Part shown: positions 15,052 through 42,199 of the stretch, piece after piece | Layout: each line of letters starts with the position of its first letter | Numbering within the stretch: the first letter of the stretch is position 1 | Assembly: GCA_028702315.1 (NCBI GenBank) | Contig: JAQVPA010000006.1 | Location: forward strand, 1-44,619 | Length of the DNA: 44,619 nt | Source: Candidatus Margulisiibacteriota bacterium | GTDB taxonomy: Bacteria > Margulisbacteria > WOR-1 > O2-12-FULL-45-9 > XYB2-FULL-48-7 | Reading direction: 5' to 3' | The notes under the pieces: model-generated | The model's input: the letters and a program-made list of their open reading frames with translations, nothing else | What the model was told of the DNA's origin: nothing | Databases searched by the model: none | Program-made: the position numbers and the translations under genes

Positions 15052-15098
15052 CCCCACATTAAAATGTGGGGAATTATTCTGCGGATTTTAATCCGCAG
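15052..15098. repeat. Two tandem perfect 20-bp palindromes in purS-purB spacer
   Basis: CCCCACATTAAAATGTGGGG (15052-15071) and CTGCGGATTTTAATCCGCAG (15079-15098) separated by AATTATT. Confidence 0.9.
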
Positions 15099-23257: not shown

Positions 23258-23298
23258 GAACAAAAAGGGTTTTGGGGAAGCCTAAAGCCCTTTTTTCT
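23258..23298. terminator. Candidate bidirectional intrinsic terminator between convergent pgi and deacetylase lipoprotein
   Basis: AAAAAGGGTTTT...TAAAGCCCTTTTTTC inverted repeat with flanking A/T runs. Confidence 0.6.
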
Positions 23299-24010
23299 TA
23301 CTTAGAAGCGAGTCGAGGGGAATTATTTCAACCTTGTTCGCCTTCAAATAATTGATAAATTTATCCGCCACGCCCTTATTCTCATTCCCGTTCCCATGGA
23401 TTAGGATGACCGAACCGTTCTTGATCGACTCTCCCTTCCCTAGCCACGCATCAGCATCAAGGTTAACGTAACCCATCTTAGCCAGTTCTATCAATCTTTG
23501 TTTTTTATGCCGCAGTCCGGGGAAGCGGAAATACTTGGAAACCGTCAGGTGATGATTACGCATAACATTCACGTTATGCAAAACCTCGTAACGGAAGTTG
23601 ACCTTTGGGTTATTAAGGAAATCGTCACTCACCGGATGGGAATAAGAATGATTGACCCAGGTGATATCCAAATCGAGCTTTTTGATCGCCTCAAGTTCTT
23701 TTTCATGCCGCTCGAGCCAGCGGCCGGAGACGCAAACCGCGATTGGGGCCTTTAATGACGATAGATATTTGAATAACTTTGCTTCATACGGCTTAGAAGA
23801 AGGGCAAAGGTCGGTCGTTATGGCAATCTTGGTTATCGGAGAAGTCACCTTAGTGGCCGGAACTTCTGGCTTGGAACAACCAGTAACCAAAAACAAACAA
23901 CCTGTTAAATAACCTATAACCAAAAACAAACAACAGACAAACGTTCCCTGTTTAAGGTTAGAAGGTTTTCGGTTATTTGATTGTTTCTCGTTTGAGGTTA
24001 TCTGTTTCAC
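23282..24010 (-). CDS. Polysaccharide deacetylase (NodB-like) lipoprotein
   Basis: Lipobox [50 protein letters not shown]. Confidence 0.75.
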
Positions 24011-24564
24011 TTAATGAGCGCTAAAGCTTCGGCCCTGGCCTTGGCATCTCGCCGAAACACGCCGCGGACGGCAGAAGTAACGGCGACTGTGCCTGGCTTC
24101 TTGACCCCGCGCATCGACATACACATGTGTTCGGCTTCGATCACGACCAAAACACCGCGCGGTTTCAACTTATCCATTAAACAGTCGGCTATTTGGCCGG
24201 TCAGCCGTTCCTGTACCTGCGGGCGCTTGGCGTAACCTTCAACTACCCTAATCAGCTTCGATAGCCCAGTTAGCTTCCCCTTAGTCGGGATATAAACTAC
24301 ATGGGCTTTCCCGGCAAAAGGAACAAGGTGATGTTCGCAGATCGAGTAAAAAGGAATATCCTTGACCATCACCATCTCCTCGTGATCGCCCTGTTTAAAG
24401 ATCGTCACCTCTTTGGCGGGATCCATATGCAGGCCAGAGAAGATGTCGGCATACATTTCCGCAACGCGATTCGGTGTTTCTTTTAAGCCGTTTCGGTTGG
24501 GATCCTCGCCAATGGCCTCAAGAATATCTTTAATTGCTTTAGCTATCTTTTTTTGATTTATCAT
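24007..24564 (-). CDS. folE: GTP cyclohydrolase I
   Basis: [53 protein letters not shown]. Confidence 0.96.
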
Positions 24565-24642: not shown

Positions 24643-26208
24643 CTAAAACAATCCGGTAATTTTCCCATCCTCCGTAATATCCATGTTCTCGGCTGCCGGA
24701 TGCTTGGGCAAACCCGGCATAGTCATTATATCACCCGCGTAGGCGACGACAAAGCCGGCGCCGGCGGACGGCTTAAGACCGCGGATCGTAATTTTTAACC
24801 CATGCGGCCGGCCGTATACCTTGGCATCGTCCGACAGAGAATACTGGGTTTTGGCAATGCACACTAAACTGTTACTCAAGCCAATACTATTTAATTTTTC
24901 GATGTCTGCCAAAGCCTGGTCTGTCCAATTGACCCCGTCAGCGCCATACACTTTGATGGCGATCTTTTCGATCTTCTCTTTCAGTGATTCGCTCGATTCA
25001 TATAAAGGATGAAATTTCGACTTAACGCTGGTAATCTTAATAATTGCCTCTGCCAGCCCCTTGCCTCCCTTGCCCCCCTTCTCCCAAACATCAGAAATAA
25101 CCGCCGGCACTCCGAATTCCGCACTCCGCACTCTAATCTCATTAAGTTCAGCGTCCGTATCATTTGCTTTCTTGTTGATCGCGATCACGACCGGCACGCC
25201 AAACAGCTGGATATTTTCGACATGTTTGGCCACATTATCATAACCATGGCGCTCGATCGCCTGTTTGGTAACAACGATCACCGCTGCCGCTGGTTTTAAG
25301 CCTGCGATCCGGCATTTGATGTCAAAGAACTTTTCGGCACCAAGCTCAGTCGCGAAGCCGGCTTCGGTCACGACGTAATCGGCCAGCTTTAAAGCAAGCT
25401 TTGTCGCCACGATCGAGTTACAACCGTGGGCAATATTCGCGAAAGGTCCGCCATGGACGAACGCCGGCGTCCCTTCGATCGTCTGGACCAGCGTCGGCTT
25501 GAGCGCGTCAAACATCAGCAAGGCCATTGCGCCGTTGGCTTTTAAATCAGCAGCGATGACTGGCTTGCCACTCCGATCATAAGCAACAACGATCCGGCCA
25601 AGACGCGCTTTCATATCATTCAGGTCTTTGGAGAGGCAAAGGATCGCCATTACCTCCGACGAAGCGGTAATATCAAACTGGCCGCGGAGGGCTCGGTCGT
25701 TCATATCGATCGCCCGGCGCCAAACGATCCGGTTCTCATCGATGCCAAGCTCATTCCCCTGGTAAATATGATTGTAAAGCATCGCCGCCAGGAGGTTATG
25801 CGCGGAGTTGATCATATGCATGTCGGAGGTGAGATGAAGGTTGATATCCGCCATCGGCAAGACCTGAGAATATCCGCCACCAGCTGCCCCCCCCTTCATC
25901 CCCATCACCGGCCCAAGCGATGGCTCACGGACACAAACAAATGACTTTTTCCCAAGTTTATTCAGTGCCTGCGCCAGCCCAATGGTCGTTGTTGTTTTCC
26001 CCTCGCCCTGAGGCGTCGGGGTCATGGCAGTCACCAAGATCAGCTTGCCCTCTTTCTTTTTCTTTAGTTTTTTAAAAGCGCTTAAATTAATCTTTGCTTT
26101 GTCACAGCCGTGGAGTTCAACATCACCCAACTTAATGCCGGCGCGTTTCGCTATGTCGACAATTAACTTTAATTTGGCCTGTTGCGCTATTTCAATATCT
26201 GTTTTCAT
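24643..26208 (-). CDS. fhs: Formate--tetrahydrofolate ligase
   Basis: TAMTPTPQGEGKTTTTIGLAQAL; REPSLGPVMGMKGGAAGGGYSQV; FVHGGPFANIAHGCNS. Confidence 0.96.
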   Translation of the reverse strand: MKTDIEIAQQAKLKLIVDIAKRAGIKLGDVELHGCDKAKINLSAFKKLKKKKEGKLILVTAMTPTPQGEGKTTTTIGLAQALNKLGKKSFVCVREPSLGPVMGMKGGAAGGGYSQVLPMADINLHLTSDMHMINSAHNLLAAMLYNHIYQGNELGIDENRIVWRRAIDMNDRALRGQFDITASSEVMAILCLSKDLNDMKARLGRIVVAYDRSGKPVIAADLKANGAMALLMFDALKPTLVQTIEGTPAFVHGGPFANIAHGCNSIVATKLALKLADYVVTEAGFATELGAEKFFDIKCRIAGLKPAAAVIVVTKQAIERHGYDNVAKHVENIQLFGVPVVIAINKKANDTDAELNEIRVRSAEFGVPAVISDVWEKGGKGGKGLAEAIIKITSVKSKFHPLYESSESLKEKIEKIAIKVYGADGVNWTDQALADIEKLNSIGLSNSLVCIAKTQYSLSDDAKVYGRPHGLKITIRGLKPSAGAGFVVAYAGDIMTMPGLPKHPAAENMDITEDGKITGLF

Positions 26209-28590: not shown

Positions 28591-29250
28591 CTATCTCCCT
28601 TTCAGGATAGCTTCCATCATTATTAAGTCTTCGGGGGCCGTCACTTTGATGTTTTCATACGACCCCATTACCATTTTAACCGGTTTCCCCAGTTTTTCAA
28701 CCGCCATCGCGTCATCGGTGACCGCGCCTCTTAATTTCGCGTAAGCGTTCCTGATCAACGCTGCTTTAAATACTTGCGGTGTTTGGGCCTGCCATAGTTT
28801 GTCGCGATTCATCGTACGCGTTACTCTATTCTCGTTACGCATTACTTCTTTAATCGTATCCTTCACCGACACCCCAACCACAACCGCCCCATGCTTTCTT
28901 GCTTCCTTGATCGATCGCTCAATTATCCCGGTTGTAACCGCCGGGCGGGCGCCGTCATGGATCAAAACGATTTCGGCTGAACCAGGTAAAGCCGCCAAGC
29001 CGTTCCTGACCGAATCCTGCCGTTCCGCGCCTCCAGCAACGATACCGATGATCTTTTTTTTCGGCAATTTCTTCGCCAGTTCCATTTGCCCGGGCGCGAC
29101 AACCAGGATTATCCCGTCGATCGGCCGGGTATTTTGAAAAGCGGCCAGGGTCCAAGCCAGCATCGGCCGCCCGGCAATTTTCAGGAACTGCTTCGGCTTC
29201 CCCATTCTTTTGCCTTTCCCACCAGCAACTATAATTGTAATATTTTTCAT
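28591..29250 (-). CDS. ispD: 2-C-methyl-D-erythritol 4-phosphate cytidylyltransferase
   Basis: IIVAGGKGKRMGKPKQFL; VLIHDGARP; DKLWQAQTPQVF; an alternative ATG exists at 29259. Confidence 0.93.
   Translation of the reverse strand: MKNITIIVAGGKGKRMGKPKQFLKIAGRPMLAWTLAAFQNTRPIDGIILVVAPGQMELAKKLPKKKIIGIVAGGAERQDSVRNGLAALPGSAEIVLIHDGARPAVTTGIIERSIKEARKHGAVVVGVSVKDTIKEVMRNENRVTRTMNRDKLWQAQTPQVFKAALIRNAYAKLRGAVTDDAMAVEKLGKPVKMVMGSYENIKVTAPEDLIMMEAILKGR
28810..28847 (-). repeat. Type-A repeat copy inside ispD coding sequence
   Basis: Minus strand: GTAATGCGTAACGAGAATAGAGTAACGCGTACGATGAA, matches intergenic copies. Confidence 0.8.
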
Positions 29251-29282
29251 TGTACGCATTACGCGTTACGCGTTACTCCATT
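29248..29282 (-). repeat. Type-A repeat half-unit filling the spacer between M24 peptidase stop and ispD start
   Basis: Minus strand: GAATGGAGTAACGCGTAACGCGTAATGCGTACAATGAA; includes the ispD ATG. Confidence 0.8.
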
Positions 29283-29947
29283 CAAGTCAACACCTTGCAT
29301 CCGGTCTTCGTCACCAAAACCATATCCTCGATCCGCAAGCCACCCCAACCCTTAACGTATATCCCAGGCTCGACCGTAATGACCATCCCGGCCTTTAATT
29401 TCTGGCGGCTCTTGAGCGAGATGCGCGGCGCTTCATGCACTTTCCGGCCGACACCGTGGCCGGTCGTATGGATAAAACATTCTCCCGGACACTTTTTTTC
29501 GCTGATATGGCAGTCAACAAAACAATGTTTTTTGATTATATCCCTGGCCGCCAGATCGACCCAGCGACACCAAACCCCGTCTTTCACCACGCTGATCGCC
29601 CTTTTCTGCGCCGCCAGGACCGTATTATAGAGATGGTTGTATCGACCAGTCGGCTTCCCGATAAAAAAGGTCCGGGTTATGTCGGAACAATAGCCCTGAT
29701 ATTTCGCGCCCAGATCAACGACAACCTGCTCCCCTTTTTTGATCTTTTTGCCGGTCGGCTTGGCATGGGGATCGAGCGACCTCTTGCCCGACGCCACAAT
29801 AATGTCAAATGACAGGCTGGCCCCGGCGGAAGTTATTTCGTAGATTATCCAATCAGCAATCTCTTTTTCTGTCTGGCCCGGCCGGATACGGAGAGAGCGC
29901 ATTACGCGGCTCGCTATTTCGATCGCCTTCTTTTGCGCGGGCTTCAT
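29282..29947 (-). CDS. M24 family metallopeptidase (aminopeptidase P/Xaa-Pro dipeptidase-like)
   Basis: VVDLGAKYQGYCSDITRTFFIG; HTTGHGVGRKVHEAPRIS; ITVEPGIYVKGWGGLRIEDMVLV. Confidence 0.9.
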   Translation of the reverse strand: MKPAQKKAIEIASRVMRSLRIRPGQTEKEIADWIIYEITSAGASLSFDIIVASGKRSLDPHAKPTGKKIKKGEQVVVDLGAKYQGYCSDITRTFFIGKPTGRYNHLYNTVLAAQKRAISVVKDGVWCRWVDLAARDIIKKHCFVDCHISEKKCPGECFIHTTGHGVGRKVHEAPRISLKSRQKLKAGMVITVEPGIYVKGWGGLRIEDMVLVTKTGCKVLT

Positions 29948-41174: not shown

Positions 41175-41202
41175 AATTCCCCACACTTAAGTGTGGGGAA
41201 TT
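41175..41202. terminator. 28-bp perfect palindrome between convergent guaA and mltG (probable bidirectional terminator/repeat)
   Basis: AATTCCCCACACTTAAGTGTGGGGAATT followed by ATTTTGTT. Confidence 0.75.
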
Positions 41203-42199
41203 ATTTTGTTAAAGCCCTGGCCCGCTGATGCTCCTGCCAAGTTTTTGAAAAGGCATGGCTGCCGTCTTTTTTCGCGACAAAAAACAAATAATCAGTTTTG
41301 GCCGGATAGATCGCCGCTTTAAATGATGCTAGCCCCGGGTTGCAGATCGGTCCGGGAGGAAGCCCTCTCCTTTTATAGGTATTATACGGGGACTTAACTG
41401 AAAGTTGGTCCAAATAAACGACCTTACTTGGCCGCTCGAGAGCATACTTGACCGTCGGATCGGCCGCCAGCGGCATCCCGATCTTCAAACGGTTGTAAAA
41501 GACCGAAGCAATGACCGGCCGCTCCGCCGGACGTTGCGCCTCTTTTTCAATGATCGAAGCGAGCGTCATAATCTCGTGCAAAGTCATTTTAGTACTCTTT
41601 TTATTCTGCTCCCAATATGGAACGATCACCGCTTCATATCGCCAGAGCATCGCTTCGGCTAAAACTTCGACCGAAGCTTCGGGAAAGAACCGGTAGGTAT
41701 CGGGAAATAAATAACCTTCCAGCGATTCCGATGGGATATATTTAAAGATACCCCAGTGCCGCTCGCGCAAACCGGCAGTGATCCCTTCCCGTACCAGGTC
41801 CTGGAACTTCTCCCATTTTTTATAACCACTACCCTTCAAGATCATTCCCATTTTATATATCGACGCCCCTTCGGGGAAAGTCACTGTCAACTCCTGCTGC
41901 GGCACAGTTTCACCGATAACCAGTTTGGCGATCACCCGGGGGAGCGGGTCGGAGGGCGAAAGTGAATATTCACCGGCTTTGATCTTATTGCCCAGGCCAA
42001 ATACTTTTATCGCCAGGCGAAAAGCGGAAAAGCGCGGCAAAACACCATTGTTCGTAACGATAGATTGCACAGCCCGGACTGAACTCCCCTGGGGGATAAT
42101 AATGTTTTTGGTCGAGAGATCAAAAGGGTTTGCGGCCCAACAAACAACCACCAACAAGACCAGCATCCCAACCCCAACCAATAGACCGATTTTCTTCAT
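41201..42199 (-). CDS. mltG: Endolytic transglycosylase MltG
   Basis: IPQGSSVRAVQSIV; TLASIIEKEAQ; VFYNRLKIGMPLAADPTVKYAL; GLPPGPICNPGLASFKAAIYP. Confidence 0.95.
   Translation of the reverse strand: MKKIGLLVGVGMLVLLVVVCWAANPFDLSTKNIIIPQGSSVRAVQSIVTNNGVLPRFSAFRLAIKVFGLGNKIKAGEYSLSPSDPLPRVIAKLVIGETVPQQELTVTFPEGASIYKMGMILKGSGYKKWEKFQDLVREGITAGLRERHWGIFKYIPSESLEGYLFPDTYRFFPEASVEVLAEAMLWRYEAVIVPYWEQNKKSTKMTLHEIMTLASIIEKEAQRPAERPVIASVFYNRLKIGMPLAADPTVKYALERPSKVVYLDQLSVKSPYNTYKRRGLPPGPICNPGLASFKAAIYPAKTDYLFFVAKKDGSHAFSKTWQEHQRARALTK

Follow-up and report, generated by a model that had tools for sequence, protein, structure and literature searches.

In the window, by which we mean the whole analysed stretch of 44,619 nucleotides from a Candidatus Margulisiibacteriota bacterium (WOR-1), the gene ispD carries a segment that we read, with good though not complete confidence, as a half-copy of a short, non-autonomous repeat (here called type A) that is specific to the lineage, consists of 7-base units, was copied round the genome and is tolerated in a loop of the enzyme. 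Repeat DNA has become part of working proteins on many occasions, and the pathways hit are those of MEP, shikimate, arginine and NAD, of tRNA modification and of mismatch repair, with the same loops being hit repeatedly. Most known examples of repeats turned into protein come from Rickettsia and Wolbachia, and the WOR-1 case represents a different, heptamer-built kind in a candidate lineage near Cyanobacteria. Orthologues with, without and with different arrays form a natural series on how enzymes accommodate repeat DNA, which also bears on what makes 7-base repeats.

The own genome of ispD contains only one full-length match to the gene, and the closest named IspD comes from candidate division WOR-1. 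The segment (Table 1) consists of the heptamers GTAATGC, GTAACGA, GAATAGA, GTAACGC and GTACGAT followed by GAA, and is translated in frame as VMRNENRVTRTMN, immediately N-terminal to RDKLWQAQTPQ, as a preliminary description had stated. That description placed the segment two bases off, at 28810-28847 instead of 28808-28845 on the minus strand. Its observation that the segment nearly matches a dispersed repeat is borne out on the other contigs of the genome, where the best match to the 38-mer (GTAACGCGTAACGAGAATAGAGTAACGAGTACAATGTA, contig C13) has 34 of 38 positions identical and the next two have 32, whereas the best matches of 300 random coding 38-mers drawn from the window as a chance control had 10-16 mismatches, i.e., never exceeded 28/38. 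An ordinary IspD loop might resemble the repeat by chance, since IspD needs V..T..R at this place, which is supplied by GTA ACG CGT ACG, and since native codons near the 3' end (ACG ATN GAT CGC) resemble GTACGATGAATCGC; the 3' end of the copy (ACGATGAATCGC) could itself be partly native sequence. As an explanation of the whole segment, chance resemblance is nevertheless refuted by the margin over the random 38-mers and by the other heptamers found at the same loop in other genera, and we give it practically no credence.

Table 1. Positions of ispD, of type-A elements and of neighbouring features in the window.
Feature	Position	Strand	Remarks
FolE-like ORF	24007..24564		name from translation
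Full type-A hairpin	24576..24638		fold -27.5 kcal/mol; between FolE-like and formate-THF ligase ORFs
Formate-THF ligase ORF	24643..26208		name from translation
Period-7 run of another heptamer in formate-THF ligase ORF	25118..25133	-	read as RVRSAE
ispD, 2-C-methyl-D-erythritol 4-phosphate cytidylyltransferase, intact	28591..29259	-	TIGR00453, 240.7 bits (cut-off 181.3)
One arm (half) of type-A repeat in ispD	28808..28845	-	34/38 identical to contig C13 element
Second type-A half element, at ispD start	29246..29283	-	GAATGGA, GTAACGC, GTAACGC, GTAATGC, GTACAATGAA
Full type-A hairpin, intergenic	38358..38433		fold -33.0 kcal/mol

The type-A family is observed to be dispersed in the genome of the window. 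Allowing up to two mismatches, GTAACGCGTACRATGAA occurs 32 times in 1.53 Mb and its reversed control not at all, which confirms a copy number above chance, and the core GAATAGAGTAACG occurs 36 times (reversed control 0), six times in the genome G001 and 0-1 times in the remaining 30 WOR-1 genomes searched. Type-A copies are chains of three to five heptamers, namely GTAACG(C/A/G) (also written GTAACGM), GTAATGC and GAATAGA, many of which terminate in GTACAATG or GTACAAT(G); since GAATAGA stands first, second or third, the copies are mosaics. The elements measure about 35-70 bp, and full copies consist of two facing heptamer chains that form a hairpin with a predicted folding energy of about -26 to -33 kcal/mol. 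In several full copies the outer ends GAATAGAGTAACG face CGTTACTCTATTC, so that the terminal inverted repeats characteristic of MITEs are present, and no consistent target-site duplication was found by eye among three full copies. In about 0.38 Mb of the genome, the copies inside genes comprised six halves and one full element and those elsewhere ten full elements and seven halves; these small numbers are suggestive of a bias towards the half form within genes and the full form elsewhere. Rfam yielded no match for the window or the type-A element loci. Five type-A copies (L008, L014, L020, L024 and L025) share a motif around GACGAAATCTCGTC shortly upstream, which looks like part of a longer repeat and also has no Rfam match.

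Several half-copies sit exactly between genes, and their GTAA or GAATAG supplies stop codons of the genes upstream. At the start of ispD, the ATG of the repeat apex (GTACAATGAA) is the start codon of the gene, and the first bases of the element complete the TGA stop of the gene upstream, so the earlier view of the other copies as intergenic holds only in part, the copy placed at 29248 not being purely so. Judging from sequence alone, the apex ATG probably also starts an ArgJ-like gene (L015, named from its translation only), and a gene in L004 also seems to start from a type-A repeat. Hairpins between genes, overlapping stop codons and supplied start codons, as at ispD, would fit a functional DNA or RNA site (a terminator-like hairpin, a translation-initiation signal or a protein-binding site) that selection has placed between genes and that is used from within the gene where a copy is internal; translational regulation was indeed proposed for TAACTGA heptamers (MacGregor, 2015; PMC4679880). 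Yet most period-7 runs lie inside coding sequences, at about the coding fraction or somewhat below it, the heptamers at one site differ between genomes, and the interior ispD copy lacks a second arm, so that we hold such a site, for intergenic and internal copies taken together, to be very improbable.

The repeat-derived segment is absent from relatives. The ispD loop in eight further genomes of the family has other DNA and encodes another peptide, usually of equal length, with the pattern V..ET.DR as opposed to V.RT.NR in the window, and the IspD of G004, 66% identical to that of the window, is also without the repeat sequence; no second genome of the same genus was among those searched, and the comparison is made at family level. 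Relatives therefore encode a different peptide by different DNA, and not the same peptide, which together with the dispersal of the family upholds the proposal that an interspersed repeat became coding sequence in ispD. The loop had further been thought about two residues longer than usual. This is correct with respect to plant and B. subtilis-type structures, which are 1-2 residues shorter, but not within WOR-1, where the 31 residues from VKDT to QTPQ are the commonest length of the family, and a longer loop is rejected there as an argument for insertion. Since the net change in length is zero against most relatives, insertion and replacement cannot be distinguished.

An AlphaFold2 model of the window IspD with 29 relatives (pLDDT 95) predicts that the repeat-encoded residues 135-147 lie in a hairpin, with strands at 133-136 and 141-145, which directly precedes the invariant Arg148; Thr145, inside the repeat-encoded part, is invariant too. 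We take this hairpin to correspond to the beta-arm of E. coli IspD, in which the threonine of KDT and this arginine presumably contact the substrate. In the reading that we prefer, two heptamer chains face each other in the intact repeat to form a hairpin with GTACAATG at the apex, copies of the repeat have been placed round the genome both between and within genes, and one arm took the place of the beta-arm tip of IspD between the invariant Thr131 and Arg148; that native codons were replaced is an inference. What makes the arm tolerable would be the variable length and sequence of the loop, together with the preserved frame and V-x-x-T-x-x-R pattern of the copy, and tolerance rather than benefit is likewise inferred. 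The repeat would spread by copying; within genes, copies would survive solely where they are in frame and the loop is tolerant, and the arrays may afterwards turn over through unit exchange.

The preliminary description understated the phenomenon, for other heptamers are observed in the same loop in other WOR-1 genera and in many other conserved genes. Type A or its GTAACGC unit is read in frame in ispD, nadB, glycolate-oxidase-like and radical-SAM genes, and other heptamers are read in frame in ArgC, TsaD, AroA, NifS and MutS. Scored by period-7 autocorrelation with a cut-off of at least 14/18, the IspD loop holds period-7 DNA in 8 of 26 WOR-1 genes and in 0 of 61 from other phyla, and 0-1 genes are returned for periods other than 7 and its multiples; these counts are approximate, as the motif missed three of the 30 WOR-1 IspD loops and a fourth did not have the length needed for scoring. 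The ispD loop of the window scores only 11/18, because its heptamers differ from one another, and is outside the eight, so that what supports this case is its match to the dispersed family. In G003 the loop holds CGAAATT, and CGAAATTCGAAATTCG has 42 matches in that genome and 0-7 in the others. In G027 (L270) the insert at this loop is of another kind, with two ATGACCAATG repeats flanking the palindrome CCTGCCTGCCGGCAGGCAGG (NLPAGRQV).

ArgC presents the same picture more strongly, with period-7 DNA of about ten different units at one loop (253-267) in 16 of 30 cases and none with periods 6, 8 or 10. The rest of the protein has no strong period-7 window; these counts are also approximate, three rows (G015, G018 and G023) being misaligned at the loop. 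The unit in G000 (the genome of the window), G003 and G004, AAAAGTC, is dispersed there with 14, 25 and 9 matches, respectively, and AATGTCC, the unit in G029, is dispersed in that genome with 18. The AAAAGTC arrays of G000 (L310) and G003 (L316) occupy the same loop in proteins only 71% identical, a sharing which, on sequence evidence, suggests either array maintenance or repeated gain.

The main rival to copying is slippage on the spot, in which variable loops gain short tandem arrays during replication without anything being copied in. It would explain why the units in one orthologous loop differ between genomes and why the ArgC loops of the same-genus pair G007 and G008 hold CTAACAA and CAAACAA, as if one array had turned over in place; CTAACAA, moreover, has only two exact 14-mer matches in G007, so that not every unit has been shown to be dispersed. 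The ispD copy, on the other hand, is a mosaic of different heptamers in an order common to distant loci, and its 34/38 match extends over GAATAGA as well as the terminal GTACRATG. Neither would arise from GTAACGC by simple slippage, which counts for copying. The loop unit belonged, in the majority of the cases tested, to the genome's own dispersed family, and nothing in slippage by itself predicts period 7 rather than 6 or 9, periods that coding DNA would tolerate more easily. Growth on the spot thus appears unlikely to us, and copying from other loci is what we infer.

A scan for exact period-7 runs of at least nine matches, irrespective of the unit sequence, in about 0.39 Mb of each of four WOR-1 genomes returned 33 runs in G000, 30 in G001, 66 in G003 and 0 in G007, against 0-11 runs for the control periods 8, 10, 11 and 13 in the same samples (1-11 in G000, G001 and G003). 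Period-7 runs are therefore strongly enriched in three of the four genomes. The samples of these three, and not that of G007, were partly picked around earlier repeat hits, so that their densities are biased upward and represent upper estimates; this choice does not account for the contrast between periods or for the variety among units. Within coding sequences, as called by a simple home-made gene caller, lie 21/33, 26/30 and 44/66 of the runs in G000, G001 and G003, at a coding fraction of about 85-87%. Named hosts of period-7 DNA are TsaD, aminodeoxychorismate synthase, MutS, NifS, AroA, Dxs, ArgC, ProC and GcvPB, and in the genome of the window ProS-, TrmD- and NadB-type genes. In orthologue alignments, 39% of pairs have a net insertion in the repeat-bearing segment, versus 10% for control segments, and the identity is 0.37 versus 0.68, which places the repeats in variable loops. 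Some runs in conserved motifs (AtpD MPSAVGYQP, DnaE DGACRLPD) look native and are probably due to chance, and the single isolated run in the formate-THF ligase ORF could be so as well. Peptides like KSQKSKV or NSELRTQ may also occur in annotated proteins of other candidate phyla.

A heptamer array gives the same heptapeptide cycle in all frames, so that a long array is open in all three or in none; from this arithmetic one can see how arrays come to be tolerated, though it gives no reason for a unit of 7. A wider reading, which we consider doubtful and advance only as a possibility, is that DNA with a 7-base period is being written and rewritten in WOR-1 genomes by some active process not yet described. 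The IspD beta-arm and ArgC 253-267 would then, as parts of the same tentative proposal, be recurrent landing sites across the class, with units following the current repertoire of each genome, and since 7 is 1 modulo 3 and the three frames share one heptapeptide cycle, an array could seed new loop sequence in essential enzymes. No mobilising enzyme has been identified for the repeats.

The closest known systems are the Rickettsia palindromic elements (RPEs) and the TAACTGA heptamers of Beggiatoaceae. RPEs (Ogata, 2000; reviewed in PMC2229807 and PMC10969869) are fused in frame in 19 protein genes, and an RPE-bearing guanylate kinase stays active (PMC2229807); for R. conorii, 44 RPE insertions are given in review (PMC10969869). 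Like those of WOR-1, the RPEs and the Wolbachia palindromic elements are short hairpin repeats. Each genome has several families of them, both in intergenic positions and in frame in conserved genes, and their mechanism of spread is unknown. Type A agrees with RPEs in multi-copy dispersal, in the stable stem-loop of its full copies and in its in-frame position in conserved genes, but not in size, RPEs measuring 100-150 bp and the heptameric WOR-1 elements 35-70 bp. To our knowledge RPEs are not built of heptamers, and the WOR-1 elements differ further in that often only one arm is found in genes and that different families occupy the same loop across genera. Judged by these features alone, type A behaves as an RPE does, yet its size and heptameric build keep us from classing it as one.

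TAACTGA direct repeats occur in Beggiatoaceae, Cyanobacteria and Bacteroidetes (MacGregor, 2015; PMC4679880), and those of Beggiatoaceae are mostly intergenic and, in ORFs, located mainly at protein ends (PMC4679880). As in WOR-1, heptamer arrays lie near start codons and overlap stops, and the reverse orientation is open in all frames; one heptamer dominates there, however, whereas WOR-1 has many, often inside conserved enzymes, as well as hairpins, and the units of the window (GTAACGM/GAATAGA and others) are not TAACTGA. REP/REPIN-RAYT systems and bacterial MITEs are likewise dispersed, non-autonomous palindromic repeats, from which the WOR-1 elements differ by their heptamer modularity, their coding location and the lack of any target-site duplication seen by eye. 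REP dispersal driven by RAYT is not supported, as the Y1/RAYT transposase family (PF01797) has no match in the genome of the window, which is 90% complete; PF01797 is present in relatives poor in heptamers. Borg tandem repeats are also DNA repeats that make new protein segments, and form local tandem arrays on extrachromosomal elements and encode disordered regions (PMC9879509), whereas the WOR-1 repeats are short, dispersed and, in IspD, predicted to be ordered. No description of heptamer arrays in WOR-1 was found in the literature, which is weak evidence, since subscription papers and preprints were mostly not covered.

Other repeats were noted in the window. A further imperfect repeat (23869-24010), with copies of AACAACCAGTAACCAAAAACAAACAAC at 23875 and 23908, codes for the N-terminal end of a polysaccharide-deacetylase-like ORF (23282-24010). 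Two near-identical small hairpins, CCCCACATTAAAATGTGGGGAATTATT and CCCCACACTTAAGTGTGGGGAATTATT, lie at 15052-15081 and 41179-41208, and a similar sequence, CCCCATACTTCAGTATGGGG, is located upstream of ispD in G003 (L036).
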